From Polytrichum commune (taxonomy: Eukaryota; Streptophyta; Polytrichopsida; Polytrichales; Polytrichaceae): DNA of 64,000 bases. Where the stretch lies: positions 5,022,001 to 5,086,000 of the forward strand of contig OX485804.1 in the NCBI GenBank assembly GCA_950295325.1, in the 5' to 3' direction. Below the pieces are notes generated by a model. It did no database searches. It was given only the letters and a program-made list of their open reading frames with translations, and was not told the DNA's origin. The position numbers and the translations under genes are program-made. How positions within the stretch are numbered: the stretch's first letter is position 1; every line of letters begins with the position of its first letter. Below, one piece after another: positions 8,976-49,466 of the stretch.

Positions 8976-9670
8976 AGTAGATAGCCTACCTAATTAGCTC
9001 ATAGACAAGTAGTTGGTTACATTATGCTAGTTAGTGTTATGTGTGGCTTTCACAAGTAAATGTATTTGAGATTGACTATAGAGAATAGTGTTTTTTTTAA
9101 CACTTGCATCCTCTCTTTAAAAATAAACCACGTGCACAACTTAATGGAGAATGTGGAGCACTCTCGCGATGGCAAGACAAAGGAAGCAAAGACCAAAGGT
9201 GCGAGGGAGAGATTGACATAAGTCACATAACTATTTCTTAATACTTAAAGGCTTATGTACGGTATGGAGACACCAAGTGAGACCTCTTATAGTAGCGATA
9301 CGGAATACACAAGTGATAGTTCAAGTGGTAGTATAGAGTCAACGGCACGGACTCCATTTAGGAGAGGGATATCCTTAAGGGCTTGTGTAGCTAAAGCAGC
9401 CGGATGGACGTTAGAAGCAAACAAAGACAAAATAGCACCCGAGCATAAGGAGGTTAAAATAACATAGTTAACTTGTGCATTCTCCACATACGTATTGAAA
9501 TCGTACATTGAGTTGTTAAAAGTGAAATTCCAGTTAAATCCAAGACCACTAGAAGGGTGAACATTGCACTATGGACTCATCCAAGTCCAAATCCAATACC
9601 GCGGAAGAATGTGAGCCCAAACCCACTACTCGGACTACGGACGCTTAAGGGTGGGGGGTTTGGCCTCACA

Positions 9671-9868
9671 CCCCGAATATGTGCCATTTGCCCATATTTG
9701 CTGACCCCCTTCCGAATAAGTGGAATACGAATGCGTTTGGGAAACCGAACGTCTTGCACTCTTCCGTAGGGCCAAACAACGATCAGACTCGCAAGAAGCT
9801 GTCTTCAGTGTTCGCCTATCCAATGACGAAGTCGATGATGCCCGGCCCACATTCGTGTACATTGGGGT
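9671..9868 (-). CDS. T1 small gene, exon g (truncated by B1)
   Basis: Second exon of a small minus-strand gene of unknown function; B1 cuts its 3' end. The acceptor is TTCAG before ACCCCAATG. The peptide contains SSTSSLDRRTLKTASCESD and CLALRKSARRSVSQTHSYST, which match the T2 copy at 27834-28154 (CLALRRSARHSLSQTHSYST) much better at protein than at DNA level. It is basic and Ser-rich, with no known domain that I recognise. The upstream exon f lies at 10019-10417. In T2 the frame ends in a basic tail with KKKN. Confidence 0.6.
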
Positions 9869-10018
9869 CTGAACAATGACCATAAATATATATAATGAAG
9901 TGGGTTAGTATAAGTGGTTACAAGTTACGGATGGAAGTCCGAAAAACCCAAGAAGTTGAAATGCACTAATACACGGAAATCATCAAGGAAAAACTTGAGA
10001 ATGCCAATAGTTGGGCAC
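9869..10018 (-). other. Intron f-g of T1 small gene
   Basis: 150 bp, donor AAG|GTGCCC (also present in T2) and acceptor TTCAG. It carries a decayed copy of the palindrome at 9923-9942 (TTACGGA, 6-base middle, TCCGAAA). Confidence 0.5.
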
Positions 10019-10417
10019 CTTCGCCTTTGGGGCGCTGGTTAGAGCTTTTGGGACATCGACGGGTGTAGATACAAGCCCGAGAGGGACGTTCGCAAACGCC
10101 GGGACATCAATTTGGGGTTCATCCATGCAAAGGCGTCTGGTCGACCGTGGATTACGGACGTGCTTCTCACTGCGGAGGGGAGATGGAGATGGACTTGGAG
10201 AGTAATTGAGTTTTGCAACCTTTGCAGGAGGGCTATCCACGACTCCGTCTTCAAACCCGGAGTCTTTGGAGTAATCAACAGCAGAGGCAGCATCGACGGC
10301 CGAATATTGGAATAGTGAAGGCATTGCAACGTCGCTCATACCAAGGGAAAGGGAGCCGGTGTCTGCCTGAGATGCAGACATGCCATTGACGACACTTTTG
10401 GGTGCTTGGTGAGGCAA
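10019..10417 (-). CDS. T1 small gene, exon f, unknown function
   Basis: Exon of about 133 codons between acceptor CTTAG (10418) and donor AAG|GTGCCC. Its hallmark is a stretch around nt 10235-10320 reading MPSLFQYSAVDAASAVDYS followed by a GFEDGVVDSPP segment. T2 keeps MPSLYQFSAVDAASAVDYS and IDDGIVNSPP. A Ser-Pro-rich block (SPSPSPSP) follows. No enzyme or fold is recognisable, and the low complexity suggests a disordered regulatory protein. The exon upstream of f was not found: it may be a short leader, or f may be spliced from the preceding HAD transcript. Gene order HAD-f-g is the same in T1 and T2. Confidence 0.6.
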
Positions 10418-10509
10418 CTAAGACACAAAAATACATTACAAAGATAAGGGGAGAAATGTTAGATATTTACATGGAGAGTCCAAGTACAAACCCAAAATCA
10501 TCAAAGTTT

Positions 10510-11229
10510 TCATATTAATTTATTGAGTCTAGCGTAGCCGTACAATCTCCTAAATTCCTCATCTTGTGGGCCTAGAGGCCTATTGCCAATTGGGTTGGAG
10601 AGCACAAAATCCGGGACACTTCCGGGGTGATAGGCAAGCCTCCTAATGTAGGGTCCTAGTTCACTCTCTAGAAAGTTGTCATTTCTATCGCTTTCCCAAG
10701 GATCCGGGAATATGCAATTGCCCGGGGGATTGAGAATACTCTTTGCCGGGCTGTCGTCAATGAGGAGTGTGTTATCCGGGGTGGGCCAACAACCGTGGGG
10801 AACCCCCTCCAACATAGGGACGCCCACCCAGAGGTTCTTCCTCAGGACCTTTAAGAATTGAGGCCCACGACCCCCTCCGACCTTGGGTACAATATTGCCA
10901 CTACGGTCATAGAGGTCATCGCAGTGTTCTTGACCGAGAAGCAAGCATGGCATTGCGAGTTCTCGGAAAAGGAAACCGACGATGGCCTTCGTGTTGTCCA
11001 TGAGCATAGAGCTCCAGATGATGACATGGGCGAAGCCAAGGACCTCACGAAGGAAGCTCCTCAAACCGGGGCGGGCACGTACAACCTTCTTATTTATGAG
11101 AGTATCGAAATGTCCGCCGTAATCCATGTCTTGTGGACTACGGAAGGGCCCCTTGGACGCACTATTCGAGATATGTTTGGATTGACAAAGCACCCCATTG
11201 AGGTCAAATATTATGAACGGTTTCATCAT
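10510..11229 (-). CDS. FCP1/HAD-like phosphatase-family protein (T1)
   Basis: Complete 239-residue frame starting MMKPFIIFDLNGVLC and ending LNKLI. HAD motif I is DLNGV with Asp9; the second acidic residue of DxD is Asn11. Motif II is WSS (Ser73), and motif III/IV is LIDDSPAKSILNPPGN (Asp158, Asp159, Lys163). This layout, including DDSP and NPPG, resembles the plant FCP1-homology (NIF) family, relatives of RNA polymerase II CTD phosphatases. The Asn in motif I also occurs in plant relatives with FDLNG, and whether the protein is active cannot be told. It lies between gene 1 and exon f on the same strand and in the same order as in T2, so it appears to belong to a mobile or duplicated cassette rather than to be a stand-alone host gene. 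Confidence 0.85.
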   Translation of the reverse strand: MMKPFIIFDLNGVLCQSKHISNSASKGPFRSPQDMDYGGHFDTLINKKVVRARPGLRSFLREVLGFAHVIIWSSMLMDNTKAIVGFLFRELAMPCLLLGQEHCDDLYDRSGNIVPKVGGGRGPQFLKVLRKNLWVGVPMLEGVPHGCWPTPDNTLLIDDSPAKSILNPPGNCIFPDPWESDRNDNFLESELGPYIRRLAYHPGSVPDFVLSNPIGNRPLGPQDEEFRRLYGYARLNKLI

Positions 11230-11602
11230 GGGCGCGCTTGGTTTTCCCGCGGGGTTGCGACATATCTCCGACGGACCCTGTGATGGAACATTCTATCTAG
11301 GTAAATGGTACTACTCAAGAAAACCAATTGACAAGCATGGATAAACTCAACACAAATTATAAGGCCAAAAATAATCCGAACCATCCAGTTGAAAAATTGG
11401 TATTAATGTAATTGGTGATATACATTTGGTGAATAATATACATTGTCGCAAAAAATATCTGTTGAAGTTAATGGAATCTATGCTAACAAAATTGTATCCA
11501 CCCGCCGGGCGAAGTCGAGGATTGAACTCGATAATATACACACGCCACGAAGGAGGCAGACAAGGAAGTTTTGGACGCGCGTCCGTAACGTGGGAGGCAT
11601 GC
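11230..11602 (-). other. Spacer between gene 1 and HAD gene (T1)
   Basis: About 370 bp with no coding signal of its own. It probably includes the last intron of gene 1, the end of that gene, and the HAD promoter. It contains a palindrome at 11573-11584. Confidence 0.5.
11573..11584. repeat. Palindrome downstream of gene 1 exon d
   Basis: Perfect core GGACGCGCGTCC within TTGGACGCGCGTCCGTAAC. If GAAGAG|GTAATC at 11618/11617 is used as a donor, as in T2, this copy is intronic as well. Confidence 0.7.
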
Positions 11603-14600
11603 TCAAAGGTTGATTACCTCTTCAAGGGCGAGGTCCGCGCCAGCAGTGCCTCCCTCACCTGGCCCCGTCATGGGCACAAGATCCGGACGCGCGTCCGCAA
11701 AATTGTCCAGATCTTCGACCACCAACAAGGTGTCTCCAGCCGCTTGCGACCCTTGAGTATCCACGTAAGGCTGATCCTCGTCTGTGGAGTCTTGGCTGCC
11801 CCGCATATGTACATCTTCATCGCCGATGGGGGCATTGCCTTCATTGACATCTGTCTCGGCGGCACCCGCCATGTCACGTGCCGGTATCTCCTCCACTCCT
11901 GTAGGATGAGAGGAGGGCTCCTCTGGAGTGGCGACAACAAGGGGAGAGGGCGGGACAATCAACGCGGGGGCTGGATAAGCATGCTCGGGTATATACACCG
12001 CATGGCTACTAGACGGAGGCCGCATGAGAGTGGGGGGCATAGACATGACGGCATCGGGAGCTGTATAGACTACAGGGGGTCTTGCCTGCAAGCTCTGCAT
12101 CAGGCTCATAAATTGTTGACTTTGGGCCAAGAACTGTTGATTTTGGGCCATGAGATCGGCGTGCCTTCGAGCAGACTCCAACCTAGCTTGCTCCATCTCA
12201 GCTTGGATGGCGGCCATCTTTTTGGCGTGCTCCTCGTTAGCTTCTCGAAGCCGTTGGTCAAGCTCTTCCTTCATTCGCCTCTCCATCTTCTCGTCCAATT
12301 CGGACACTGACATCGGCTCTTTCTTCACCTTGCCAGGTTCCGTAGGCAAGGCAGAGATGGCATTGTGAATCCTAATCTCATCCTCGTCTTCATCGGAGAG
12401 CTCCAAGACCGCGCCTTCAGGGTATTCGTTGTATGGCGTCTTGTTCCTCTTTCGTCGACTCTCACGATATAGAGAGATATCAGGCCTCAATATCAACTCC
12501 AGCACATCCCTCCCCTCCATAGGGGGTAGATCTGAATGTTGAGATCCCCCTCCAGATGAAGCGGTGCATCCGCCTTCTGCCGCAAGGTCCACATCCTTCT
12601 CGGCCATAACTCCTGGAGCACGAGATGGACCCGCAGTTGAGGGAAATCCAACTCGAGAGGTGGGAGTCCCAAAAGGTGAGAGAACAGGGGTATGAGGGAC
12701 CCTTATCGGAGTGAAGTTCACGCGTGCCTCCTGCGCATCCGTGTCGTCTGTTCCCAGCAGGAAAGCACTTGGATTAATTGGGTCGCGAACAAGGCCGTGT
12801 AAAGGCTCCTGTGTGGAGGGTTGCGCTCTTGGGGAACTGGGATCTTGGTCCTCTTCAGGGTCTGTCTCCATTCCGGGCATTGCCTCTTCTCTAGAAGAAA
12901 GAGGCACAACAGGATGGGGTGTAAGGACGTCCATGATGTCCTGGATATCCATTTTGGAGGCCATTACCCTGTGAGTATGGGCGTCATCGTAGTCGGAATC
13001 CTGCACAAAAGAATTCACCTGCAAGCCAAGCATCTGGACCATAACAAGAAAATTAGATAAGAACAATAGTGGTGATTGCATATAAATGAGGCTAGATGTC
13101 AACACGTTATACGGACGCGCGTCCGTAAAACCACCACTCAAAAGTTGGACAATTTTACGGACGCACGGTCGTAAAATTCACATGCACCTGATACTGGGTT
13201 TTTACGGACGCGCGTCCGTAAAATAACTATGCAAAAGATAGGTGGGTTGAAAGACAAACAAATACTCACCAGTGCTGCATACATAAACTTCGTGCCTCCG
13301 AAGACGTTGTAAACTGTCTCACTCATGACAGTTAAAGCCTTCAAGACCCCTATATAAAAGTCCATCCGGAGCTCGAACGCCGGATAGATTGCATGCATTG
13401 TCTCCTCAACAAGCTCCTTGGGATGTGGTGGCGGCAACGAATAGACTTTCCTGAACACCTCGTGTGGTTTAATGGGCAATCGCCCAGTTGGGGAAGACTT
13501 GCGTGTTAAGAAATAAAGCTGCACAGCTCCCACTTGCTTCACCCCCCTTGCCTCTTGAATGAAAGTGATCCCTTCTGTCTTCGCTGGGATGTAGGTGCTG
13601 TGGTACATATCGTATTCGAGGTCCATCGTTGATGTGTACAGATGGACAATGGATGTGGACCTCTCTTGCTCTACAATCCATAACCACACATGAGGCTCGA
13701 AGAGGGCAGGCGAGCGATAGCTCTTGAAGGCTTTTAAGAAGGGCTCGTAGAAGGGTGCTCCCGCAACGTCTTGCTTCCATGCTCCGGGAATTGCACGAAA
13801 ATCAAAAATGGCGAAAGGGCAACCCCTGGGGTCATCTCTCACAGAGGCTCTTGAAGCATGGGTGTCCCATGCGCCGAACTTCATGCCCTTTGCGACCGTG
13901 CAGAATCTTGCAAACCCTCCAAATTTCGCGTTCTTTTTCCTATCGAGAAAGTGAACATACAACCCTGCCTCCCTCTCGTCGATGGATCCCTTCTTTTCGT
14001 TCCTTCTGGATCGTTGGGCAAGGAAGGATGATGCCCCTCTTATCAAAGCTCGCATTGAGACGCCATTGATGTGGTATTCACCCTTCAGCTTCCTCCAATT
14101 CTCCCACACGATCTCACCATCACTATTAATGAGGTTGTGGGTGGGTAGCAATTTGCTAATCTCCCTTACAGCCATGGTCTTCTTCTTTCTGTAATCGCAC
14201 CATTCCTTAATGTGGTACGTGGATGGCTTCATGTGCTTCGGCCGCTTCAGAAAGATTTTGGGATAGGGCAAAGTTCTTCTAGGAGTTTCTAGAAGAATGT
14301 GTTCTGCTGCCCTGTACAGCTCCGAGTCCATCAATCCTTGGAGGGGACGAAAGAACTCTCGCAGGATTGGTGGTACCTTAACTTTTGAGTCGCTCTTGTA
14401 GGTGTTCTCCGTATCTGGATTGACAAGGTCGCCGTTGTTGTGGGCATCGAAAAGTCGCAACCATATTGACCACGTCTCTTCTGTTGCAGTGATGAGCTTG
14501 AGTTCGCCTTTTAATTCATGCACTGTTTTCATGCCGCTTGTCTTCATGTCTATACTCGAGAACTTTGTCAATATGGCATTGCTGAATGTCTGCAAGAGGC

Positions 14601-16011
14601 GCGAATTGCAAGAAATCAGAACATTGAATTCAGTACAAATTAAATTCAAATATTTGAATCAGTGGGAGGAGAAGGGCCACATTTACGGACGCACGTCCGT
14701 AAATCTATTTGAGTAACATACCTGCCATTTTGGGTTCTTCACGACAGCATTATCTCTTTCTTTTGGGGGACATTCGTGCTCCACCCACAAGGTCCTCCCA
14801 GCCACGATGTTGGCTGCCCATGAAGCCTCGAACTGCCTCACTTTATTCCCCTGGTTCATGAAGGCAGATATTGCTATGAGTTGGTTCGAGTCCTTGGAAT
14901 GCACGACGAATGCCTTCCAATATCGGATTGTCTCCTTTAATGGGCTTTTCCACTCGTCGTCTTCAAGGAGAGCTTTTGCAGCCATTACACTATGTTGGCC
15001 GTCGACAATGTAGAACTCTCCATTCTTGAGAATCGGCCAATTTTTTTCGTTGACTTCAACGATAGGATCCTTTGGTGTCACACAAATGGTTTGCCTGTCA
15101 AACTTGGGGTTGTTCATGATGTTGTTCATTTGCCACCATACACCGCTTTCTTCTTTTGCTCTGGTATTCATACTTTCGGTGCCCTTGTGGCATTTGTAGA
15201 CGTCTACTTCGAAAGTAAAATACCTGCCAAGGGGCCAGCATCCCTTCGTCTTCTCATCGAACTCTTGGAATATTTTTGTTGAGAGTTCGGCGTCAGGGCG
15301 TTGACCCTTTTTGAGGAGTGGAGCGACAGTCGGTGTAGAGCTGACATCCGGACCCTCTGTTAGTCCAGAGTCCATCTGCGAGTGAGAGCGTTTACTCGCC
15401 TGTCTGCTCCCTCTTTATGCACCACTCTGCGAGGGCCTTGAGGATTCCGGCACTAGTTTAGGCACACGCTTGGGTCGTTCAGGAACGATTTGTTTTTTCT
15501 TATCTTTCCCCTTTCTGGCCTCTAGCAAGGCTCTATTTACTCTTGTTACATTGTTCAAGAGTCGTCCAAGCCACTTACCCGTCCAAGGTGCATTGCATGC
15601 ATAGTCTTGGAACTCCGTCTGGAGATTGAAGCAAGCCGCATCTGTACTAGCATTCTCACACTCATTTTTGTTGAAGGGGTGGTAGGATTCGTGCAAAATG
15701 AAAGTGACCCGATCTTCTTTCTTCTCAAGGTCTATTACTACATAATCCCCTTGTGCCACTGCACACTCTACTGTCCACGATTTAAGCTTTATCCACTTCT
15801 CAGCTTCATCTATGTCCGTCTTCATTTGATATGCAAATCTAAGCACAAATATTTCTTTCTCGTCCTTTTCTACCAATACTGTCCAATTATCCACAATTTC
15901 ATCTTGTGGCTTGTAATGGTCGTTGGGACTTATGTCTTTGATGGCTTCTGGTAGCGGAGGAATGAGAGCTTCTGCGAACATCTCAATTGCATGTCTCTTT
16001 TTAGATGCCAT
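11603..16011 (-). CDS. T1 gene 1: large protein with ParB/DGQHR-like motif and acidic coiled-coil C-terminus
   Basis: Multi-exon gene; exons read from right to left at 16011-14722, 14589-13270 and 13033-about 11619, all joined in phase 0 by GT-AG introns, giving about 1,340 residues. ATG at 16009-16011 follows an intron-like TTTGCAG. An in-frame TAA at 15415-15417 interrupts an otherwise continuous first block. Near residue 336 FYIVDGQHSVMAAKAL resembles the DGxH motif of ParB/sulfiredoxin-like folds. The middle block (about 431-870) is the part best conserved with T2 (YPKIFLKRPKH, RGCPFAIFDFRAIPGA, VWLWIVEQ, TVYNVFGG). The last block has acidic VLELSDEDEDE, then VKKEP and a Glu/Lys-rich coiled coil (about 1100-1185). 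The overall family is not known to me. Conservation with T2 suggests past selection on the protein. Confidence 0.7.
11684..11697. repeat. Palindrome inside gene 1 exon d
   Basis: Perfect 14-bp CGGACGCGCGTCCG, read in gene 1 as part of FADARPD. This is the only clear exonic copy in T1. Confidence 0.75.
13034..13269 (-). other. Intron c-d of T1 gene 1 with three palindromes
   Basis: 236-bp phase 0 intron, donor CTG|GTGAGT and acceptor TCCAG, whose position agrees with T2. A downstream alternative acceptor TTGCAG at 13019 is also in phase. Palindrome copies lie at 13200-13223 (24 bp, perfect), 13153-13176 (imperfect) and 13110-13127 (18 bp, perfect). Confidence 0.8.
14590..14721 (-). other. Intron b-c of T1 gene 1 with palindrome
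   Basis: 132-bp phase 0 intron, donor CAG|GTATGT and acceptor CTTGCAG. It contains a 24-bp palindrome with one central mismatch pair at 14681-14704, starting 17 nt inside the donor. Confidence 0.8.
14722..15375 (-). other. ParB/DGQHR-like region of T1 gene 1
   Basis: This block encodes the segment from MDSGLTEG to NPKWQ. The central strand-turn motif ILKNGEFYIVDGQHSVMAAK is followed by helix-like sequence with a Trp and charged residues. In the ParB/Srx superfamily a DG-x-H-R motif sits at the active or nucleotide-binding site; here the Arg is Ser. The match rests on one motif, so a structural comparison would be decisive. Confidence 0.35.
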
Positions 16012-16065
16012 CTGCAAATGATAAGATAGATAAGTTAGAATTCTTGGCAAAAGATATAGATCATA

Positions 16066-16089
16066 CTTTACGAACGCGCGTTCGTAAAG
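16066..16089. repeat. Palindrome upstream of gene 1 ATG
   Basis: 24-bp perfect palindrome with core ACGAACGCGCGTTCGT, the variant typical of T2. It lies 55 bp upstream of the likely start codon in what looks like a leader intron. Confidence 0.85.
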
Positions 16090-16191
16090 TTTTCCAAATT
16101 GTCTCAATTACATTTTTGGATCCAAATGAAAAGATACATTTCTTCCAAATACGCATAACGCGTATATTATATACTCAAATATCTCTATAAG

Positions 16192-16795
16192 TTACGGACG
16201 CGCGTCCGTAAACTTCGCAAAGATAGTATGGTGGTAAATATCAATGTATTCAAGTTACGGTTAATATTTTTTTGAGAGTCTTGTTTCACACCTACATTTT
16301 TTTGAGAGTCTTGTTTCTCACCTACACAAAGATCCACAAAGTTTACGGACGCGCGTCCGTAAACTTTGAGTATTATAAAGGCTATTTTAATATGCCTAAT
16401 ATTACAATATTTGGCTTCGTTTGCGTAATATGTTGTTTGAGAGGCTTGTCTCTCACCTACACAAAGATCCACAAAGTTTACGGACGCGCGTCCGTAAACT
16501 TTGAGTATTATAAAGGTTATTTTAATATGCCTAATATTACAATATTTGGCTTCGTTTGCGTAATATGCGGTTTGAGAGTCTTGTTTCTCACCTACACAAA
16601 GATCCACAAAGTTTACGGACGCGCGTCCGTAAACTTTGAGTATTATAAAGGCTATTTTAATATGCCTAATATTACAATATTTGGCTTCGTTTGCGTAATA
16701 TGTTGTTTGAGAGGCTTGTCTCTCACCTACACAAAGATCCACAAAGTTTACGGACGCGCGTCCGTAAACTTTGAGGATTATAAAGGCTATTGTAA
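16192..16795. repeat. 135-bp tandem array with palindromes, upstream of gene 1
   Basis: A single 20-bp palindrome at 16192-16211 is followed by units spaced exactly 135 bp, each holding a 32-bp perfect palindrome: 16337-16368, 16472-16503, 16607-16638 and 16742-16773. The rest of each unit (CTCACCTACACAAAGATCC and an AT-rich segment with TATGCCTAATATT) is almost identical between units. Both strands are open across the array only because the palindrome reads VYGRASVN in either direction. The array ends about 180 bp upstream of gene 1's first mapped exon. Confidence 0.92.
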
Positions 16796-18159
16796 TGTTT
16801 GCGTATTCCAATGTTTTCATTAATGCTCCGTGTTTTTCGGGACTTTACCTTGTCGTCCAATATGGTTTTGCCCTCCAAATAAGAATGCAATCTTACTTCA
16901 CTGCAATAGCAAACACTGCACTGCAGATTGACAACATAAGGCACTTTCAGAACACTGACATGTCCATAACTAAATGATTCTTAGAATGTAGCCATAGACA
17001 AAGTACTAAACAAATTCAGAATTCCTTGAAACTGGAATCTCACATTCTGTCATGCTAACCTTAAGCCCTAAACCACAACAACCCAAAATTGCAATCATAC
17101 AAAATGCAATTGCAATGTTCTAAAAAACTTACCTTTCTAGAGTGTTTGCTCCTAAACCACAACTAGCTACTCCTGCTGCAGCTAATACCAACTGCAAATG
17201 AACAATAAAATTGAGGTCAGAAACCTCTAGTAATTCAATGTGCACATGCATGATTCAACATTGAGAACTACTCAAAAAAAGTTGCTCATAAATCATATTC
17301 ATGCAACACAAGTGAAAGGAAACTATTGATTTGTATGCAAAAAATATAATGAACTACATGGTGAAGCTACAACTGAAACCCTAATGAGCAACATCTGAAA
17401 CACTAATTACCCTTGCAACAACTGAGATCAACAACTGAAAACAACCTAATGAGCAGTAGCAAGCAACAATGAGCATCCTAATGATCTAATGAGCAGCAAG
17501 CAAGCAAGCAGCAAACAAAACTTACTAATGAGCTAATGAGCTAATAAGCAAATGAGCAGCAAACAAGGAGAACTTACTCTAGCTCTGACGCGCGTCAGCA
17601 ATTGACCAATAAGAATGAGTTTTGCATTGTGAGGAAAGAGAAGCAAGACCAGCAAGGGAAGCAAGAGAAGAGAGAGAAGAAAGTGAAGATAAGGGTAAGA
17701 AGCAAGAGAAACAAGAGAAGAAAGTGAAGAGAAGCAAAAGAAGCAAAAGAAGATGAGCAGATGAGCAAGAGAAGATGAGCAAGAGAAGATGAGCAAGAGC
17801 AGATGAGCAAATGAGCAAGAGAAGCAAGAGCAGATGAGCAAGAGAAACAAGAGAAACAAGAGCTGCAAGAGAAGGAAGCAAAAGCACGAAGAGGAGGGCA
17901 AAAGGGAGCTGGTGTACTTTGAAACCCTATAACCCTAAAGCAAGAGAAGCAAGAGCAACAGTAGAAGGAACGGAAGGAAGAGATGATAGAGAAGGAAGGA
18001 AAAGCACGAAGAGCGAGGGCGAAAGGGTGCTGGAGTACTTGGAACCCTAAAACAATGGCGTGCCTCCACGTGTCCCTACCCCAAACGTCGCGCCCAATCG
18101 CCGGCCTATACCCTTACGTGGCATCACCCTACTGGTCTATATTTGGTATTGAAATAGGG
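16796..18159. other. AT-rich and purine-rich region upstream of gene 1
   Basis: No gene seen. 17440-18000 is low-complexity sequence built on AGCAAGAGAAG and GATGAGCAA, which yields meaningless Leu/Ser-rich frames on the minus strand. A 14-bp palindrome CTGACGCGCGTCAG lies at 17585-17598. The gene 1 promoter probably lies here, but I cannot place it. Confidence 0.6.
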
Positions 18160-18683
18160 GTTTAATTTATACTTAGTTTGGTGATTTTATTATCATATTA
18201 TGTCATAATAACATCTTATGTTTATGCTAAGGCAAGTTAAAAGTCACACTAAATGTCACTCTAAATATAAAATGAGCCATCTCGTTGCCTCTTCTCTTCA
18301 CTTTTGATAATGAGTGAAATATTCATACGAGCTCTAGAAAGTATTCATTATTTTAGGAAATTATATTAGGGTGTGAGGTTGAGTAAATTATTATGTCATT
18401 GTCAACAATTAAATGACATCAATAATAATAATAATATCATTTTGGAACTCCAAACAATGAGAGAAACTAACTACAATTTCTAGTGTGGCCTCTATGGAGA
18501 GTGGGGGAGCACCTTTCATTAAAACCTAGAATCACGTGCGTTCACTGCATACTCTAAAAACCCCCTAATATATACAAGTGATTTTTTGTGAAATGAAGTA
18601 ATACACATACAATTGCAACAATAAATATACAAGCGACAATATGTATACACAAAAAAACATTCATTCATATATATTAGTCATTA
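18160..18683. other. AT-rich intergenic sequence
   Basis: No gene seen. There is an AAT microsatellite near 18420-18436. The last eight bases (18676-18683) are the left target duplication of the next element. Confidence 0.6.
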
Positions 18684-19003
18684 CTCGGGGGGGCAGTGTG
18701 TTAAAAAAATAAGGATATAGGGGGGTATTACTTTCAATTCTCTTATTTTTTTCACATGCTATCATTATATAAATTTCTACTTTGGGTTAATAGAAAAATG
18801 GCTTGCATTACTTATAATTCCAAATTACCAATTATTCCATACCCTATACTACTTTAAAGATGTCCAGTGCCATTTTTGATACCCTATATTACTCTTAAGT
18901 CCATAATTTTATAATTTTTTGCCCCCATGTTTTTAAAATACCCTATCATTTGTTTGCACGTATATTGCTACTCCAACCAATGACTGCCCCCCCCCCCCCC
19001 GAG
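18684..19003. mobile_element. Small non-autonomous hAT-like element (320 bp)
   Basis: The ends are inverted: left CTCGGGGGGGCAGT, right ACTG-C(14)-GAG. The flanks are a perfect 8-bp duplication AGTCATTA at 18676-18683 and 19004-19011. An 8-bp duplication is typical of the hAT superfamily. The interior is AT-rich and noncoding. Confidence 0.8.
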
Positions 19004-19011
19004 AGTCATTA

Positions 19012-21470
19012 ACATAAGTATACAAATGCAATTATTGTCTCTAAGTCTACCATGGAATGATCAATAAGATCATATGTCCACTTGTTGTTAGCCCCTTTTG
19101 ATACCAACATAAACCAATCTCCACGTTTGATGGACGGTCCATCAAGTCAAATGGATCCCTATACTCCACCCAACGATTACCAAACTTCCTCCGCATCCTA
19201 TAAACTCTCCCAACAAACCAAACCTTATGAAAACTTATCCAATATGAACACTTATGATATATAGTATAGTAACAATACCATACAAGTACAATTATTCTAT
19301 ACTTTTTAAAGGCCTTCCATATATGTACGTAACTATAAATTATAACATGTATACCATATGTATATGCAATACGGCAAGGTCCAAATCAATACCCCTCCTG
19401 TGCACTCACGTATAACTCGTACATGTTTAGTACAGTGCACCCCCCGAGCTATGGAGGGGACTCTATATTTCGAGAATAGTAATAATATTCAATAAAAGGA
19501 TGTCTTGTTGATTAACTTCAGTATAAGAATTCTTTTTCTTCTCAAAGGTGGGATTCAAATGCAATTGGGGCAATATACCAATTGGCCACAAATTCTCATG
19601 AAACTTTGCCAAGAAATACTTGTGAATCCCTCAATTATCGCAATAAGTTGTGAAACGCAATTAACAAAACCGAAACATCGAGATATGGGGAGAATTCATA
19701 TGCTTGTAATACCTTAAACAACATTACGGATTAATTCAATCCCTCCACACATAGGTCTAAGCTTGTATTAAAACAAAATGCATGGGTATGTGTTGAATGT
19801 ACATCCCTCTTGTACATTAAACAACCTTTCGGATCCATCCAATCCTTCCACACATAGGCCTCAGCTTGTATTATCGCTTATAAGTAGTAGCAAACTTGTT
19901 TATATTTGGAGTTTTCTTTCGGTGGTGAGTTGTGTTTAGGACTCGATTATAGAATACCAATATACGATCTTCAAAACCTTTCATCAAAAGTATATGTTTA
20001 AAGCAAATGGTTTAAAGCCAAAGAAAGATTTAAAAAAATGAAAGGTAAGGTTACCCCTAAATTTGCTTCACATTTGAAATGTTTATGGTTTTATTTTACA
20101 AAATTTAAAGGTAGTCATATAGTTTTGAATTACTTCCACTTAAGGCTACACATGTATTGGGAGTTATTAAGTTAACCATGCGTACCGTATGTCGTTGTGT
20201 TTGTTCAGGGGTGGGTGGTTATAGGGTATAGGGTATAGGGTATAGGATTTAGGGTACCACGTATGAACTAATGAGAGTATCCCCCTTCTGTCACCAACTT
20301 AAAATTGCTTGCCTTTATAATATTTGGATACCCTACCCTCCCCTTCTCTCCATTATGCTTTGTTGGGCTCATAATGTTACTTAGAACAACAACTGCTATT
20401 GTTTGAGTCAATATTGTAGATAATGTACATGGGGTACTAAAAATTGTTTTTTGTCTCACGTATAGTACATTAAGAATGCTAGTATTATTTTTTTTGAAAT
20501 AAATGTTGATGTATTGAAGGGGGCCCTAAGGTTAAGAGAGGAAATTGAGAATATTGATTTTAAAGCAACCCATTGTGCCTATGACAATAGATGTGCTATT
20601 TTCATGGCATCTAGGCGCTCAAAGTTTGTGTACGTATTAATATAATTATGTATAGGTGTGTAAAAGTGGGTAAATTAAACGGGTTGGATGGTAGGGTGGT
20701 GGCAAATGTAATTACTAGTTTAAATGCTAGATGAGAGGAGATAACATGATATTGGAGTGAATATCATTACATCGTATGCAAAACAATAAAATAGATGCTA
20801 GTTTAATTTTGAATGACACGTATTTTTATACTCCATGTACTATTGTTGTTGTTGTGGTTGATGTTTCACACGACACTATAATTTTCTGTCTCCTAGTTCT
20901 ACAATGACCTCTCAATATTAGGTACTTCAATATTATAAACCACCCCTCAACAATGTTCAATGCTCATATATTATTAGCCTATTTTCTTTGTTGTCCACCA
21001 TAAATACGTAGATGCCTTTTGCTTTGTCATTATGTGGACTCATCGTCTATGCATGTTGTCCACTATGAATACACATTCCATTGTAAGGCTGGCACACGGA
21101 ATGTAGTAATGTTAGGTTTTTATTTATAGGACGTAGATGGTGGCTAGTATCCTATGTTGGAAAACGGATCCAAGGGAAACGATCAGTACTTAAGGGGACA
21201 CCCCTCCACCAAGGGACTCTTTTTGCATCTCAGATGTGGGTTGCGCTGCTTGGACCCTTGTAGTGTTCTGGATGTTTATTTCGTGCAGGTACAGATCCTA
21301 TTGCAATGGACCTTTTATACCCTAAACACTAAATTCCAAGCCATAAACCCATTAGTGGAGCCAATTTTTATGTGGATTGCACTGTCTGGATCCTTATAGT
21401 GATTGATTTTTGTTTATGGCAAGTATCGTTCCTGGTGAAATGGTCCTATTATGGCGCCGCAAATCACGGA
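19012..21470. other. AT-rich intergenic region
   Basis: About 2.5 kb without a supported gene. It contains a short TATAGGG-type repeat at about 20219-20247 and, at 21225-21450, two diverged copies of a roughly 130-bp repeat (GGATTGCACTGTCTGGATCC and its relative) that lead into the palindrome array. Confidence 0.6.
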
Positions 21471-21875
21471 GGTTTACGGACGTGCGTCCGTAAACCTTAA
21501 ACCTCTTGCTTGGTTGGATATCTATTTATGTGAGAATTGCACTTGAGCTATTTCATGTACATTGAGGTTTACGGACGCGCGTCCGTAAACCTTAAACCTC
21601 TTGCTTGATTGGATATGTATTTCTGTGAGAATTATACTTGAGTTATTTCATTTACATTGAGGTTTACGGACGCGCGTCCGTAAACCTTAAACCTCTTGCT
21701 TGATTGGATATCTATTGTTGTGAGAATTATACTTCAGCTATTTCATGTACATTAAGGTTTACGGACGCGCGTCCGTAAACCTTTAACCTCTTCCTTGATT
21801 GGATATCTATTGCAGTGAGAATTATACTTGACCTATTTCATCTACATTGAGGTTTACGGACGCGCGTCCGTAAAC
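21471..21875. repeat. 95-bp tandem array with palindromes, upstream of DUF7869 gene
   Basis: Five units at a spacing of 95-96 bp, each with the palindrome: 21471-21496 (one central mismatch pair), 21565-21592, 21660-21687, 21754-21783 and 21852-21875. The flanks extend symmetry to 24-30 bp (AGGTTT/AAACCT). Between palindromes the unit reads CTTGCTTGATTGGATATCTA, then TTTCATGTACATTGAGG. Its spacer is unrelated to that of the 135-bp array, so the palindrome is the shared element. Confidence 0.92.
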
Positions 21876-22032
21876 TTTTGCACCTTTTTGTTCCATTGTT
21901 CGGTATTGCACCTGAGCTGACATCATGACCACTTGCCATGTATAGTATACCAACGAGACTGTATTGTCATGAAAATTTTCTGGCTCACGTCCAGTAACCT
22001 AAACCTATTTGTGCTAGTAATGAGGTACAGAG

Positions 22033-22515
22033 AGGTTTACGGACGCGCATCCGTAAACCTGCAAACCTTTGGTTCCATACTTTTCACTATGTGCCATGTA
22101 GAATATTACATTGAGACTGTACGGTCAATGGAGGTATAAGATCCCTAAACCCTAAGCTTACATCACCCTATGTGTCATAGTATAATATTTTGACATTCAT
22201 AATACACAGTAGGAACCTGGCACCTGGACATCTTGGTTTCCTAAACCTCTGTGTGTCTTGCACAACACTGACTTTTGACATTCGGATGTTTGCGGACGCA
22301 CGTCCGTATACCTATGTTGTATAGTTTGCGAAAACATTTGCACATGATATTGACCTCTTTGACCACGAAGAAATTTACGGGTGCGCGCCCATAAAACTGT
22401 CATGTTTTTGTTGTCTGGACCTTTCCGCCGACTATGAACAAATAAAGACATATGTATGCGCGTGCTTGCACTGATAATGTTGTTACATGGAGATATACGT
22501 ACGCGCGTTCGTATA
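22033..22515. repeat. Dispersed decayed palindromes upstream of DUF7869 gene
   Basis: Copies at 22033-22060 (one mismatch pair), 22290-22309, 22373-22395 (variant ACGGGTGCGCGCCCA) and 22494-22515 (TATACGTACGCGCGTTCGTATA, one mismatch). They lie between the array and the start codon. Confidence 0.8.
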
Positions 22516-22596
22516 CCAATGTGTCTTTGTTTCCAGGCCATGAAATCCACTATTGTTGACATTGTGTTTCATTGACAATAAGCGTTAGGACTATCC

Positions 22597-25500
22597 ATGA
22601 CATTTATTGAATGGGATATTTTGACATACTCTTCATGTGGGTCACTTGTAGTGGCCATGGATTCCAACGTCCGAGATAGTGCATTCGAGTTCTCTTCGGA
22701 AGCGTCAAGCTATGCTAGCGAATTTGAAGGTGTCATGGAACATGAAACTACAATTGGTGTCGCCAATGCAGAGGATGATTTCATACCAACATGTGAGGGT
22801 TATTCGCGGGAACAATGGATTGATCTTGATGTTGTCATAGTCAATGGATACGGCGTCCCCGTGGCCAATGGTGTTTGTAGGAACTCAAATCCTATGGACT
22901 GTATTGATGCAAATCCCCTTGGGGAGGAAGATGTTGGGGTGTGCATTTTGAACTCCTTACATCCATTGGAAGTACCTCCTGGTTGGAGATTCTCTCTTCG
23001 TCGATGGCCGTTGCGAAGTGTTCTTCACGATGGTGTCAGCTTGTGGAATCATACACGTCGTTTTGAGGAAATACAAAAGACTTTGTTCGCCACAATGCGT
23101 CCTAGACAAGGTCGGCGTAAATATGATTCCGTTCGCGTGCCCCGTGAACCCACGCAACGTCGTCGAGATCTAACATTGGGAGACACATCTATTAGGTCCG
23201 TAGCAACAAAGGATTGTTGTGCAAAAATGTGTTGCCAACTATTTCCCCGTGACAAAATCAAATCTTTGAGACAAGAGATGTGGCTTGCGGACTTTCGGAT
23301 GCGATCTGCAAAGAAACTTGAAGTCCATCGCAACATGCACTTTGATGCCGAAGGTCGTAAGGTTGTGACCTTGGAAAATATAGAGGTATGCTGCACGGCA
23401 TGGTACATTATACATGCAGTTTCAAAGGCAGATTTTTATAGGTTCCGGAACTACTCGCTGCAAGGACGGCGTTCTCGGTTCCATGGCAACTCTGGTACAA
23501 AGAAGCCCAGGGAGGCAACACTCCAAGCAGCTGCAACACTATCAACCATCATTATGCCATTAGCAGATGCGATGCCACACAAGACACGGACTCTGCCGTC
23601 GGGGGAAAAGGTTGTCCAGATGGTTTTGCCTACAGGGACAAAATGGAAGAACATACTTATGGATGTTAATGAGGTTGGCGAAAAGGCTGGATGTGGGCCG
23701 ATTTCGTTGTCAAAATTGAGTGTGATCAAGAATCAACAATTTGCAGAGTACATTACGAAGAGGCCTGGGGATAAGTTTGCCAGGTGTTCTGCTTGTGAGA
23801 AATACAAGGGCCTTCGAGATGCACATCCCATAGGGACTGAGTCGCACAATAGACATCAACGGAAATACATTGAGCATGTCAACAACCAAGAGGCACACCG
23901 TCAAGTCTACTACAAGAATCGCGCATTATCGATAATGAGGCCGAATGAGGTTTTGACAATCATTCATGACAAAATGGACCATGCGAAGACTGCGTGCCCT
24001 TGTTATGCACGGAAAATAAAGGCTACAGATGGATATTTCAAGCTCCCAATATCTGTCACAGGTTCGTTGGTTTTCACATTTTTTTTGCGAACCCACATAC
24101 TCATCGTTAAGAGTTACGGATGTACATCCGTAAGTGTTTGTTCATTTTCTTGGCCTGCTTGCGGAAAAATTGAATTTCCTTATCATAAATGATATTGGAA
24201 TGTACTTCTCATTTGTATGTCTTAATTCAGGTATGATCGCACATGGCCATGTGGACGTCAAGTATGCACATTATGGCTTGGATTTCTATCCAGGCGACGC
24301 CAATCATACCGTAGGGTCTTTTGCAAAACTTCTACGAGATCTTGAGAGTCCGCCAACATCATCCTCTCGCGCTCTTTTTGTTGGATGTGGAACAACACCG
24401 ATTTATGAGGCTGTGCTAGAGGGGAAAGAAGTATGTCTATCGTCACTGCAAGAACCGCCTGAACAAACCGTTCTTGCTAAACCTTTGCCTCCAACTCTAC
24501 ATGTGCAACTTGACAATTGTGCCAAAGACAACAAATGTCGATACGTGTTTTGTTTTTGGTCATTGCTCGTAGCCAAGGGCATTTTCAAAGAAGTGTTTGT
24601 GTCTTTTTTGATGGTTGGCCACACGCATGATGACATTGACGCTTCATTTGGACGTTGGAGTATGAAGTTGCACGAGGAGGATTTTCCGACGATTCCTCTT
24701 CTCATGAAATCATACATGGATTTGGATAATGTCGCGCACCTCTCCATGAGGAGTGCCCGAAACACCATGGGCACAAGGGGGACCCCGGAGTGACACCCGG
24801 GACTTGTGGCGCCGTTGGTGAGAGGGCCCAAGTGATCCTAGTGTGGGTGAGGGCCCCGGGCGTTGGGAACGCCTCCCACCCACGAAGACTAGGAGGCACA
24901 AGGGCAAGGCCATGAGCTATGCGTAGCTCATGGCGTGGTGATTCTAGAATGCTCAAGATCACCTCAAGCGGAGGTGGGAGCTAGGAGTTATGGCCATTTG
25001 AGTGGGGCGCTGTCCCGGGACAGCGCCCTGGTACAGCAGTGCCTGGGAGTGATTCCCGGGACTGCCAAGGTTCAAACAGGCATAACTTCCTCAAGACTTG
25101 CGCAAATGGGGCAAGTGAGGAGTCCATCGGCATCTACGTGAAGCGTAGATGAAGATGGAGTGGTTGGTTGTTATGATCAGACATCATACAAGGAAGTTAT
25201 GATGGTCTGAAGCTGCTGGGGGGGTTCTAGGCCCAGCGGCTAAGGGAAAATGTCCACTTGGCCCCAACTCTTGGTAGAGAGACAAGAGGTTGGTTGACGG
25301 TGGGGTAGGGGCCCCGCGTAAAGTCCTAGAGGCTTATATGGGTGAGGTGGTGTGGCCTCACCCACCCGAGGCCGAACGGCACGGCCTCCATGGGCATTGG
25401 CCCATTGTGAGGCCATAGTTGCCTAGTATGGTTCGGGTTGTTGTAGTGTTGCTCCGGCAACGCGATGATCAACATAGGATTGGACTTCCATGGATGGAAG

Positions 25501-26732
25501 TCCACATTGGGGAAATGGGTTACCGATTAAGGGGTGAGTCCCGAAAGCAAAGTAGGAGGGTTGGTTCCCTCCTATGAACTATTGGTCCGGGGTAAGAGGA
25601 GCTATCCATTAGCATGGCGGAATGCGAAGGGTTAGCAACTCGTAACCTTTGCTAGAATTGAAAATTGGCAAGATTATTAATGGACCTAGCAAGGGTTGCG
25701 ACAGATAATGTGCCAGTCATCCCGCATTTGATTGAAGAAGTGCCCGATTTCAAAGCGTTTATCGAACCATTCATTCTTAAGGGAGGTGACCGTTTAGTGG
25801 GCCATACCAAGGCTCAACAATTCCGATTCTATATGCGTGATGATGGTTTGCCGGCCATGCAATTCAAAGTTTTGTGCACTTCCCCGGATTGGGGTCCAGA
25901 GGAAGGGATACTCGTATGGCGCCAAAACGAAGAGGGCAAATGTATGCTACCTGATGGGGAGCCGAAGCCTTGCAAACCCAACCCCATGAGGAATGGACCA
26001 GAAATCATCAAAGGTATATCCGGATTCATCCAATATTGGAAAGAATTGTGCGAGGAAGACATCACAAGGCGTGTTCGGGATACCCACGAACCATTGATTA
26101 CGTACTGGGATCGCATTCGCTCAGCATTGCTAGCACCCGATGTCGAAACACATTCATGTTTGACACAAGGTTTTTGGCCACAAAGCCGAGTGACAATCGT
26201 GGAATCTGAGGCCATGTTCTTCGACAATGGGGACATCCATGAAGAGTTCGCAGCGGACGACCATTATGTTGGCCCAGCTCGTAATCGTCCGGCTCCATCA
26301 TTTCGTGTGGCTGTTGATTGCTACGAAGGGTATATGATCCTCGTACGTCCTGGAGATGATGAGCACCCTAAACCGATTTGGTTGGTAAAAGCATTGTCAT
26401 CACCAAATTTTGTTCCAACTAGCCCAAATTTTCATCAAATTGAGGTGGAATATTGCCGTCCTAGCACCAAAGATCAAAATGTGCTCCGCACATATTTAGG
26501 GTGGGACACCAAAAAAGGTTTCAAATGGACAATGGACTCAGCATACGAACCAATATGGATAAACACAGATACCATACTTTGTGCTTGGAAACCACGCAAA
26601 GGTTCCAAATCAGAGACAATGACCATCCCCCAAAAACATATAGATTTTGCCAAAGACAACTTGGCACGTATTGCTGCTGCAGAAAACGATGTCGAGAATG
26701 GAAATGAAGCTGAAGATGAAGATGGAGAATGA
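22597..26732 (+). CDS. DUF7869-like transposase-type protein, split by a solo LTR
   Basis: Two exons: 22597-24061 and 24231-24729 joined to 25709-26732 after removing the solo LTR and one target-duplication copy. That gives 995 codons with no stop or frameshift. Another possible start is the ATG at 22660 (MDSNVRD). The motifs match my memory of DUF7869 proteins: KMDHAKTACP near residue 459, QLDNCAKDNK near 581 and VGHTHDDIDASFGRW near 619, a DDD-type pattern consistent with an RNase H-like nuclease. A Cys-containing stretch (CSACEKYK) precedes it. The C-terminus is acidic (EAEDEDGE). The role as a transposase is inferred. The LTR now breaks the reading frame. Confidence 0.72.
24062..24230 (+). 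other. Intron of DUF7869 gene with palindrome
   Basis: 169 bp, donor ACAG|GTTCGT and acceptor AATTCAG. It holds a perfect 20-bp palindrome at 24114-24133 with a different core, GGATGTACATCC. Confidence 0.82.
24730..25703 (+). mobile_element. Solo A-family LTR in DUF7869 gene
   Basis: 974 bp, TGTCGC...GCGACA, with perfect 5-bp target duplication GATAA (24725-24729 and 25704-25708). It left by LTR-LTR recombination the only visible lesion in the gene. Confidence 0.95.
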
Positions 26733-27833
26733 TATTGACGTAGGGTTGGACCACAATTATTTGAAATGTGTCTTGGTTTTTCATGAAATATATGGCATTG
26801 GGGTCGAATACTATATTAGACACATTTTATAGCAATTTTATAGATTACAATTATATATCATGATTGTATTGATTTACGGATGTGGAATCCAACTTCACAT
26901 GCGCTATCAAATGTTTTTTATATGTTTGTGTTTACGGATGTGGAGTCCAAACTATATAATTATATTGCAGATGCTAATTTGCAATTTCTTATACACACTG
27001 TCAAATTATTTTAATATTGTTGCGTTTGGGATGTGCCGTTCAATTCACCTACAATTGGCTAAGATGTTATGTTTGGGATACGCATCCAAGAGTCCCTAGT
27101 AGATATAAAATCAGATGGCTATTTATAGATTCGTTAATTTTGTTCAATACAAAATCAAAAATACAAAATAATTGTGAATTTGTGACATTGGAATATTGTG
27201 TTGGCGTAGTTTTGATTATCCCCCAAATAATTACTATATTTAGAAACATATATATTCATCACATATGGATCTTTCGAACATTATGTTGCCATTGTTCCCC
27301 ATGTTCCCTACGTTCACAATATTCGCATCCGAAACTACGGGTCCAATTTATTTTGAGACTTTCCAAAGTCTCCAATTAACGAATATAGTGTTATGTTCTT
27401 ATTTCCGCATAGTGTCAAGTTTGATCATTAGCTTCTTAACAACCTTGAATACTATATTCGGTAATTGGAGACTTTTTATTGATTATGAGACTATTTAAGG
27501 ATGCATTTTTCAAAATTGGACCAGAAATGACAACCTAAAAATCCCATATGTATAATTTTGGATACTATTATTAGACATAAAGGCATGAAAGTGAACAAAA
27601 ATGTGAGACATACATGAAATAGTTGCGTATGAAATGAGAGATCGTTATGAATGGAAGGGAAGATGCGGAGCATGATTGGAAGTTGAATGAATTCAATGGG
27701 ATTGAAATACAATTATAATGGAAATACCATCAATGTCTTGAGTAACTTGGAATAGAATAGAAAGTAAGCACTAATATGTTCTACACCTAAGCGCATTTAG
27801 GGAGTCTGTCCTACTAGCACGCTTCTAGTCCCA
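26733..27833. other. AT-rich region after DUF7869 gene
   Basis: No gene supported. Two decayed palindrome arms occur at about 26872-26890 and 26929-26951 (GTTTACGGATGTGGAGTCC). The inverted repeat at 27361-27481 lies here. Confidence 0.55.
27361..27481. repeat. Inverted repeat related to MITE ends
   Basis: AAAGTCTCCAATTAACGAATATAGTG at 27364-27389 is opposed to ACTATATTCGGTAATTGGAGACTTTTT at 27454-27480, about 60 bp apart. The motif equals the ends of the MITE at 56985-57241 but points outward-to-inward in the other sense. It may be the abutting ends of two elements or one end of a larger one. Confidence 0.6.
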
Positions 27834-28154
27834 CTAGTCCGACCCATTATTTTTTTTTCGCGGCCTTGTCCTTGTTTTTGGCAGCCTCCATGGCTCTGAA
27901 AATCTCAGGCCCGCGGCTATAACCGTTTTTGTTGACGGACCCGGAATACGTGTCGTTCTTCCAAATTTTGGACGCGCTCCCGAATTGTACGGAGTGGTAT
28001 TGTGAGTGGAATATGAGTGCGTTTGCGAGAGGGAATGTCTTGCGCTACGGCGGAGGGCCAAACAATGATCGGACTTGGATGATGCGGCCTTGAGGGCGTG
28101 CCTATCCAAGGAGGACGTGGAGGAGGGCCGGGCACCAAGCGAGCAGGTAGCCAC
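27834..28154 (-). CDS. T2 small gene, exon g
   Basis: Homologue of T1 exon g, and complete at its 3' end: it runs from acceptor TTTCGCAG at 28155 to a TGA at 27834. It keeps SSTSSLDRHALKAASSKSD and CLALRRSARHSLSQTHSYST and ends in a Lys/Arg-rich tail (KTRTRPRKKN). It is basic, possibly nucleic-acid binding or a nuclear signal. No domain is recognised. Confidence 0.6.
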   Translation of the reverse strand: MATCSLGARPSSTSSLDRHALKAASSKSDHCLALRRSARHSLSQTHSYSTHNTTPYNSGARPKFGRTTRIPGPSTKTVIAAGLRFSEPWRLPKTRTRPRKKNNGSD

Positions 28155-28296
28155 CTGCGAAACGTCATAGGAAGATAAGAATAAGAATGGAGTGGGGAAA
28201 ATAATGAGAGCGGTTTGGGGTGGGCGCTCGTAAAGATAACGGCACGCACACGCAAGACAAGGGAAGCAAAAGCGGGAAAGGGGTTTAAGAGGGCAC

Positions 28297-28822
28297 CTTG
28301 GCTTTGGGGACGTCCAAGCGGGGGACGGTGGGCACGAGGGGGGCGTCAACGGGAGCATCCGGAGCCGATCGAACTATTGCATTGTTGAATGGCGGGGGGG
28401 AGTCGAGGCGTGGAGGGCCCACAATCGCGGAGGACATTGCGGGGGGAGGAACGGAGTCGTCGGGGGAGGTGTGGCATGGGGGGCCTTCCATGCAGAGACG
28501 CCGGTTGGGCCCACGGCGAGCGATGGCGTCGTCCGTAGAGGGCGAGAGGTGTCCCAAACGAACGAACGTCCATTTCTCCTTGGAGAGGGAGGAGGGCGAC
28601 GGGGCGTATGCGCGGGCGACAAGTGGGGGGGGGGGGGCTGTTGACGATGCCGTCGTCGATCCCGACGTCGCGGGAGTAATCCACGGCCGAGGCCGCGTCC
28701 ACTGCCGAGAACTGGTAGAGGGATGGCATTTGGAAGTCCGTGACGTTGCGGGAAGGGGAGGCAAGGGGCGAGAGGGGACGGGAAGGGCCGTCGAGTACCG
28801 GGGCGCCACACAGGGGGGGAGA
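28297..28822 (-). pseudogene. T2 small gene, exon f with frameshift
   Basis: Matches T1 exon f at MPSLYQFSAVDAASAVDYS and VNSPP. The end of the exon (VPRLDVPKAK before donor GTGCCC) is in another frame, so at least one frameshift separates them. The C-run on the minus strand around 28624-28637 is a likely slippage site. Acceptor GCCCAG at 28823. The preceding minus-strand sequence contains an AAC/GTT microsatellite (28830-28852). Confidence 0.55.
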
Positions 28823-28925
28823 CTGGGCAATAACAACAACAACAACAACAAAAAGAAACATCCAAAAACGGAGCAAGCATTAGATATGTGAAGCACATGA
28901 TACCAAGCAAAGACATGGAGGCATT

Positions 28926-29645
28926 TCAAATCAATTTATTTAATTTGGCGAGCCTCATGATGCTCTTATATACATTATCGCGGGGGCTTAGTGCCGCATT
29001 GCCGAAGGGGTTGGACCTAACAAAAAATGGGATGCTACCGGCATGGAGCACAAGCTTTCTAAGGTAGGGTGCTAGTCTATCGACCAAAAATGTGTCTTTC
29101 TTATCGCCGGTCCAAGTATCCGGGAAGATGACGTTGCCCGGGGGATTCAAGACGCTCTTGGCGGGGCTGTCGTCGATGAGGACGGTGTTCTCAGGAGTCG
29201 GCCACCACCCGTGGGGTGTCCCCTGCATCCGGGGGACGCCTCGCCAGAGTCTGGACCGGAGGACCATGAGGAACTGTTGTCCTCCGCCCCGTCTGCCAAA
29301 CTTGGGCACCGGTTGACCTTTCTCGTCGAGCAGCTCGTCGCAGTCCTCTTGGCCGAGGACGAGGCAAGAGCTCGGGAGATCACGGAACAAGAAGTCGACG
29401 ATGGGCTCCGTGTTCTCCATGACCATGGAGCTCCACACAATGACGTGAGCGAACTCGACCACCTCGCGAAGGAAGTCCCGCAAGCCGGGACGGGCGCGGA
29501 CAACCTTGCGGTTCATGAGGGTGTCGAGCTCGCCGTCATAGTCCCTTTCGTCGGGTTGACGGAAGGGACGCGTGGGAACCTTGGGGATGTGTTGGGTATG
29601 ACACAACACCCCGTTGAGGTCAAAAACTATGAAAGGTTTGTTCCG
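28926..29645 (-). pseudogene. FCP1/HAD-like gene (T2), start codon lost
   Basis: Second copy of the T1 HAD gene, open from KPFIVFDLNGVLC to LNKLI. The Met codons of T1 (MMKPF) correspond to RNKPF here, so no ATG remains at the start; the first later candidate start is internal. Motif I DLNGV, WSS, and LIDDSPAKSVLNPPGN are all kept. The frame stays open over about 238 codons while DNA identity with T1 is only moderate, which suggests it decayed recently. Promoter sequence upstream is interrupted by solo LTR B2 at 29872. Confidence 0.75.
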
Positions 29646-32888: not shown

Positions 32889-32890
32889 CT

Positions 32891-32902
32891 TGGTATCAGA
32901 GC
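32891..32902 (+). other. Primer-binding site of A2
   Basis: TGGTATCAGAGC, two bases after the 5' LTR, complementary to the 3' end of plant initiator-Met tRNA. Confidence 0.95.
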
Positions 32903-42355: not shown

Positions 42356-42360
42356 AGCTC

Positions 42361-49454: not shown

Positions 49455-49466
49455 GCTCTGATACCA
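49455..49466 (-). other. Primer-binding site of A3
   Basis: GCTCTGATACCA on the plus strand, the reverse complement of the initiator-Met site, two bases from the 5' LTR. Confidence 0.95.

Follow-up and report, generated by a model that had tools for sequence, protein, structure and literature searches.

A repeated palindrome within a giant Sola-type transposon of the moss Polytrichum commune as a possible operator for the element's own, probably ParB-like protein

A stretch of 64,000 nucleotides from the genome of the moss Polytrichum commune (assembly GCA_950295325.1, contig OX485804.1, positions 5,022,001 to 5,086,000; C2:5022001-5086000, hereafter the window, in a genome of 408 Mb and 64 contigs) contains many copies of a palindromic 20-mer, TTACGGACGCGCGTCCGTAA, around two divergent genes, one encoding a DUF7869 protein and the other called gene 1. 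Which kind of sequence carries this palindrome, and which protein recognizes it? The palindrome is carried by a DNA transposon whose ends and target duplication were identified. The palindrome itself is probably, with a likelihood of roughly 60%, an internal, repeated dimeric operator of this giant Sola-type element, bound by the element's own gene 1 protein.

Palindrome sites and the element that carries them

Allowing up to four mismatches, 22 sites, 10 of them exact, are present at 11569-24133, where the original prediction had seen at least 20 copies between 11573 and 24133. A weak additional site at 9925 has five mismatches. The gypsy parts of the window are free of the palindrome, as had also been predicted, because apart from the sites of the two elements T1 and T2 described below no further window position comes within five mismatches. 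Perfect palindromes of at least 18 bp number 20 in the window, compared with an average of 0.4 across 20 first-order Markov sequences; the TTACGGACGCGCGTCCGTAA motif accounts for 13 of those in the window, five are another palindrome of a gypsy long terminal repeat (LTR) and two are others, the longest measuring 32 bp. Genome-wide, the 20-mer occurs 1026 times exactly and 1832 times with up to one mismatch, and the reversed-sequence control gave no genome match.

Of the 1026 exact sites, the first 50 listed, which cover contig C1 as far as 37.22 Mb, form eight clusters, all of which lie inside copies of one element, some of them shortened, that were compared as E1-E5 and F1-F3. The uniform distribution that the original prediction had named as speaking against an association with particular genes was not seen. 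The element starts with AACACTATATTCG and ends with CGAATATAGTGTT, has a terminal inverted repeat of about 28 bp and is 17.3-19.1 kb long in the four copies with both ends. All four are flanked by a 4-bp target duplication, which is also found around a 257-bp non-autonomous relative, a miniature inverted-repeat transposable element (MITE). The window copy T1 (9670..27392, minus strand) was delimited by BLAST against E1-E5 and with the aid of the termini and target duplications seen in other copies; its end at 27392 is present, with the terminal inverted repeat at 27365..27392 (AACACTATATTCG...GGAGACTTT on the minus strand), and about 460 bp of the far end are missing at 9670.

Sola transposons generate a 4-bp target site duplication, encode a DDD transposase and have terminal inverted repeats of 11-1124 bp; some exceed 15 kb, and they are present in moss, being known from Physcomitrella. 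The present element agrees in its duplication, in the dimensions of its terminal repeats and whole length and in its DDD transposase, the latter at model level, and therefore fits the Sola superfamily. The remark that no plant element of this kind was known is amended accordingly: the element falls into a superfamily already recorded from moss, and its gene layout is that of an algal Sola1 element. The ends AACACTA...TAGTGTT had suggested a CACTA element, an assignment that was dropped because the 4-bp duplication lies outside AA/TT in all four copies.

Within T1 the sites cluster upstream of both genes and in their introns, in line with what had been predicted. Upstream of gene 1, a 135-bp tandem array (16301..16796) holds one palindrome per unit, at 16343, 16478, 16613 and 16748, followed towards the gene by a single palindrome (16192..16211) and, immediately upstream of gene 1 itself, by a paired A/T-type variant TTACGAACGCGCGTTCGTAA (16068..16087). 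On the other side, ahead of the DUF7869 gene, a 95-bp tandem array (21469..21875) likewise holds one palindrome per unit (21474, 21569, 21664, 21759 and 21854), and less perfect palindromes occupy 22037..22514 (at 22037, 22290, 22375 and 22495). The DUF7869 intron contains TTACGGATGTACATCCGTAA, a perfect palindrome with paired changes, at 24114..24133. Gene 1 has one site in intron 1 (14683..14702) and three in intron 2 (13109..13221; at 13109, 13155 and 13202), and two more (11569..11700; at 11569 and 11681) fall between gene 1 exon 3 and the phosphatase gene that follows, in an intron or spacer; that at 11681 is still within the open frame of exon 3. Copy E1 shows the same placement, with sites ahead of each of the two divergent genes and within introns. 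None of its 22 sites lies inside the drawn exon limits, although exons make up 8421 of 17350 bp; the site at 14861 is 11 bp beyond an exon limit where the frame is still open, so that counting more strictly would give 1 of 22. No palindrome is present in the outer 2.3 kb at either end of E1, including the terminal repeats.

The palindromes persist where the neighbouring sequence has turned over. In the middle of the spacer (E1 6751-9900), E1 and F3 are only 0.40-0.59 identical, and F3 nevertheless has 26 palindromes, 12 of them exact, in arrays of a different repeat length than those of E1. From 31 non-redundant sites, which remained of 111 sites in five copies after similar ones were collapsed, the extended consensus ARGT-TTACGGACGCGCGTCCGTAA-ACYT was derived. 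The first three flanking positions covary across the dyad and none do so further out. The placement outside exons, the persistence and the flank covariation are what would be expected of a dimer-binding site under selection. By comparison, it is hardly credible that the palindromes are functionless passengers of a satellite-like tandem amplification: such a process would account for the two tandem arrays, but not for the single intron sites, for the differing repeat units around the same 20-mer in different copies or for the lack of any E1 site inside the drawn coding limits. A role as a structure, in which intron RNA hairpins or DNA cruciforms rather than a protein-recognized sequence would matter, is very unlikely as well. 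The near-perfect symmetry, the flank covariation and a perfect palindrome of 56 bp in copy E4 are in its favour, yet certain bases never vary (core positions 2, 5 and 9, in 31 of 31 sites), one-sided changes show no clear G.U-compatible preference (9 T-G versus 6 C-A) and most sites lie upstream of genes rather than in introns. The 56-bp palindrome is an extended site at element coordinate 12059 of E4 and suggests that the arms can be copied from one another.

Genes of the element

Exon limits were drawn from open frames and codon periodicity. The DUF7869 gene (22657..26729, plus strand, start approximate) is supported by codon periodicity and by a Pfam DUF7869 match (E=2.7e-35). It has two exons separated by the short, palindrome-containing intron, and in T1 exon 2 is split by a solo gypsy LTR (24730..25703) that has no TTACGGACGCGCGTCCGTAA-type palindrome. 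Modelling of the relative P0016 (AlphaFold model, VIA-align) predicts a DDD transposase; with Foldseek alone, DUF7869 had no match at E values under 0.001, and the literature searched did not mention this domain. The organisms named among the DUF7869 relatives listed are the mosses Ceratodon and Physcomitrium.

Gene 1 is divergent from the transposase gene and lies on the opposite strand. Its exon 1 (14715..16011, minus strand, limits approximate) probably encodes a ParB-like domain, judged from the motif FYIVDGQHS read by eye and from a weak DUF6551 match in 12 of 18; a premature stop at 15415-15417 interrupts it in T1, whereas the exon is open in other copies. Exon 2 (13261..14547, minus strand) models as a beta-class N4C/N6A DNA methyltransferase fold. 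The usual catalytic motif IV of such enzymes is [DNS]PP[YFW]. Because of the fold match, its place in gene 1 is assigned to DFRxIPG, which replaces DPPY and in which D249, F250, R251 and P254 are invariant in A3; this assignment superseded an early reading of VWLWIVEQE as motif IV. With motif IV differing from [DNS]PP[YFW], gene 1 is therefore a variant and not a typical ParB-methyltransferase accessory protein. Exon 3 (11711..12967, minus strand, limits approximate, with the open frame continuing to 11603) appears by eye acidic and coiled-coil-like and is the least conserved part.

A gene or exon for a NIF (NLI-interacting-factor-like) phosphatase follows at 10513..11292 on the minus strand (Pfam NIF, E=4.4e-13) and is under codon constraint. 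In other organisms, phosphatases of the NIF type act on the tails of RNA polymerase II. Neither DUF1985 nor DUF287 was matched in a Pfam scan of four gene 1 pieces and 51 homologues. Sequence searches of the PDB returned nothing useful, those of Rfam nothing, and those of NCBIfam only sub-threshold matches.

Two palindrome versions and the choice of binder

The additional palindromes that had been noted in T2 are confirmed as six relatives with three to five mismatches to TTACGGACGCGCGTCCGTAA (39694..51428; at 39694, 40082, 40190, 40548, 51351 and 51409), with the correction that T2 is a diverged relative of T1 with a paired variant of its own. It extends over 27448..59834 on the minus strand, with an end motif at 27448, and is broken by gypsy insertions; its NIF gene lies at 28929-29699, gene 1 exon 3 at 42355-42867 and exon 2, in pieces, at 51440-51778 and 59037-59834, and its DUF7869 gene is outside the window. 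Both families thus have the NIF-type phosphatase in common. All six T2 sites have A..T at core positions 6/15, and the family related to T1 carries the paired variant TTACGAACGCGCGTTCGTAA. Genome-wide, 1026 exact sites of the TTACGGACGCGCGTCCGTAA form (GG-type) were counted, and 45 mixed sites; all other combinations together amount to 407 at most. These numbers do not represent independent events because many sites are copies by descent.

Does the site version follow the gene 1 clade? Sites and genes were compared with random positions on one contig (C1), using 98 scored of 1170 candidates for T1-type gene 1 and 144 of 990 for T2-type. From the site side, a T1-type gene 1 lies within 10 kb in 49 of the 50 listed GG-type cases, and no such site has a T2-type gene nearby, which bears out the predicted association with gene 1 homologues. 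The 54 exact A/T-type sites among the matches listed comprise 30 near T2-type gene 1, three near T1-type and 21 near neither. From the gene side, all seven T1-type genes in range have their own site type nearby (expected 0.04), as do 19 of 24 T2-type genes (expected 0.23; one of the 25 loci was excluded, being beyond the end of the site listing). The site variant thus largely follows the gene 1 clade on this contig. The earlier view that the palindrome belongs to a specific mobile or regulatory system is borne out in its tested part, the tie to the element and to gene 1; binding of the site by an element protein is a prediction.

Among the element genes, gene 1 diverges fastest, as judged from amino acid identities. 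In T2 these are 49% for gene 1 exon 2 and 33% for exon 3, whereas NIF is at 60% and the DUF7869 exons reach 67 and 81%; in F3 they are 87 and 93% for the transposase versus 76, 75 and 68% for gene 1.

The element has two divergent transcription units, one with the DUF7869 DDD transposase and the other with gene 1 (probable ParB-like part and methyltransferase fold), then the NIF phosphatase. In the mechanism proposed here, the gene 1 protein would bind the palindrome in dimeric form, with each half-site ARGTTTACGGACGC contacted by one subunit, and gather on the arrays before both promoters and on the introns. It could thereby control expression of its own element family, and would probably also shield that family from host silencing, comparable to VANC on VANDAL elements and to ParB on parS clusters. 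The methyltransferase fold of the gene 1 protein may be used for recognition, with its catalytic activity lost. Alongside these predicted steps stand observations: an element delimited by its ends and a target duplication, the positions of its sites and their persistence, a family-specific paired variant and, at model level, the protein folds.

Binding by the DUF7869 transposase itself, with the palindromes as accessory sites in synapsis or autoregulation, is unlikely but has to be weighed, as transposase and gene 1 travel together and the site type tracks the transposase clade too. However, sites are lacking in the outer ~2.3 kb of E1, in the terminal repeats and in the 257-bp MITE with its related ends, which argues for gene 1 over the transposase as the binder, and the transposase is the more conserved protein of the two in F3. 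A host factor, either a transcription factor or a methyl-CpG reader, that binds the palindrome and is exploited by the element for expression is quite improbable. The arrays upstream of both genes would suit such a factor, as would the presence of five CpGs in each site and the fact that one-sided changes at core pairs 4, 8 and 10 are without exception C-to-T (15 cells). On the other hand, two sister families in one genome use different paired versions, and the near-exclusive location of the listed exact sites beside gene 1 homologues contrasts with the targets elsewhere that would be expected of a host promoter factor.

Several results weigh against binding by the gene 1 protein. A/T-type sites also occur in T1 elements, where they occupy a single position upstream of gene 1 and are seen at 3 of the 16 C1 loci; among the matches listed, the 21 A/T-type sites mentioned above are paired with neither gene 1 type, and five T2-type genes lack an exact A/T-type site. 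Either the coupling is not strict or the lists are incomplete. A/T-type sites with up to one mismatch number 3829, far above the exact count; the true T2 consensus is therefore probably one base off the pattern used, with TTACGAACGNNCGTTCGTAA as a candidate. Finally, gene 1 and the transposase cannot be told apart as binders by clade coupling.

Related systems and neighbouring features

In bacterial ParB-parS systems, clusters of a perfect palindrome, the 16-bp parS, are situated near the gene for a ParB-like protein. The moss element similarly clusters perfect palindromes near a gene for a probably ParB-like protein, but differs in the sequence and length of the site, in being a eukaryotic transposon and in having a methyltransferase fold after the ParB-like part.

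Closer in layout is Sola1-1_Ec32 of Ectocarpus, a giant Sola1 transposon of 21.5 kb in which, according to the passages of PMC12477816 on this element, an opposite-strand gene encodes ParB-like and N4C/N6A DNA methyltransferase domains. Its authors suggest there that ParB-methyltransferase proteins bind and modify their own element; the relevant passages name no target site, the main text does not mention palindromes, and the reference list includes Iyer 2011 and Petroll 2025. As far as these passages describe the algal element, the moss element resembles it in being giant and in having a gene of probable ParB-methyltransferase type opposite the transposase, and differs in its motif IV, DFRxIPG, and in the added NIF phosphatase; the named DUF7869 relatives, among the matches listed, are from mosses. 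The published layout therefore means that the element type and gene arrangement are already known. What appears to be new, from the sequence comparisons, is a likely target site with a family-specific version, together with the altered methyltransferase motif that makes this version a variant.

A second comparison is with VANC of the Arabidopsis VANDAL elements, in the sections of PMC5735166 that deal with it an element-encoded, sequence-specific protein with DUF1985/DUF287. The VANC motif, YAGTATTAY, is not palindromic; it occupies introns as well as intergenic and terminal non-coding sequence, often as tandem repeats, as is the case for VANC21 in VANDAL21; motif and VANC diverge between families, and the transposase is more conserved (PMC5735166). 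Set against these sections, the moss motif is likewise located in introns and non-coding parts, often in tandem, and its candidate binder diverges faster than the transposase. It differs in the type of element, in the palindromic motif, in a gene 1 without DUF1985/DUF287 and in that binding and loss of methylation would here be predictions. The moss elements provide a precisely defined candidate target that exists naturally in two versions, each with a matching type of protein, and would thereby make the algal proposal of self-binding or marking testable. If the proposal is true, transposon self-recognition of the VANC type arose more than once. A more far-reaching interpretation is doubtful and is put forward tentatively: the palindrome might be the first cognate DNA target for transposon-borne ParB-methyltransferases, with catalysis lost here and the protein acting, in a sequence-specific manner and as a dimer, in regulation or anti-silencing. 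It would co-evolve with its site via paired half-site changes, in an arms race like that of VANC but with an independent origin from a bacterial ParB-methyltransferase.

Some further features concern the surroundings of T1. A long inverted repeat flanks it, with arms at 7397-9670 and 29872-39684 in pieces 96-99.9% alike, the right arm being interrupted by LTR insertions. Gene 1 exon 2 copies at C2:4942207, 5007986 and 5035261, within 100 kb, are 100% identical to the query, and a second T1 copy lies ~27 kb upstream of that in the window, which suggests a recent segmental duplication. The 257-bp MITE, at 56985..57241 in a gypsy-rich stretch, has related Sola-type ends and the target duplication CCAA, and contains no palindrome. 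The gypsy LTR copies carry a different perfect 24-bp palindrome, GGGCGCTGTCCCGGGACAGCGCCC, at 25005-25028, 31168-31191, 32192-32215, 52451-52474 and 58745-58768, with a shorter perfect form at 2879 and 50459 and additional copies outside the window. At 60522-61644, short tandem repeats of a G-rich kind, GGGGAACGGG.., and of a C-rich kind, CCCCAATCCG.., are found close together.
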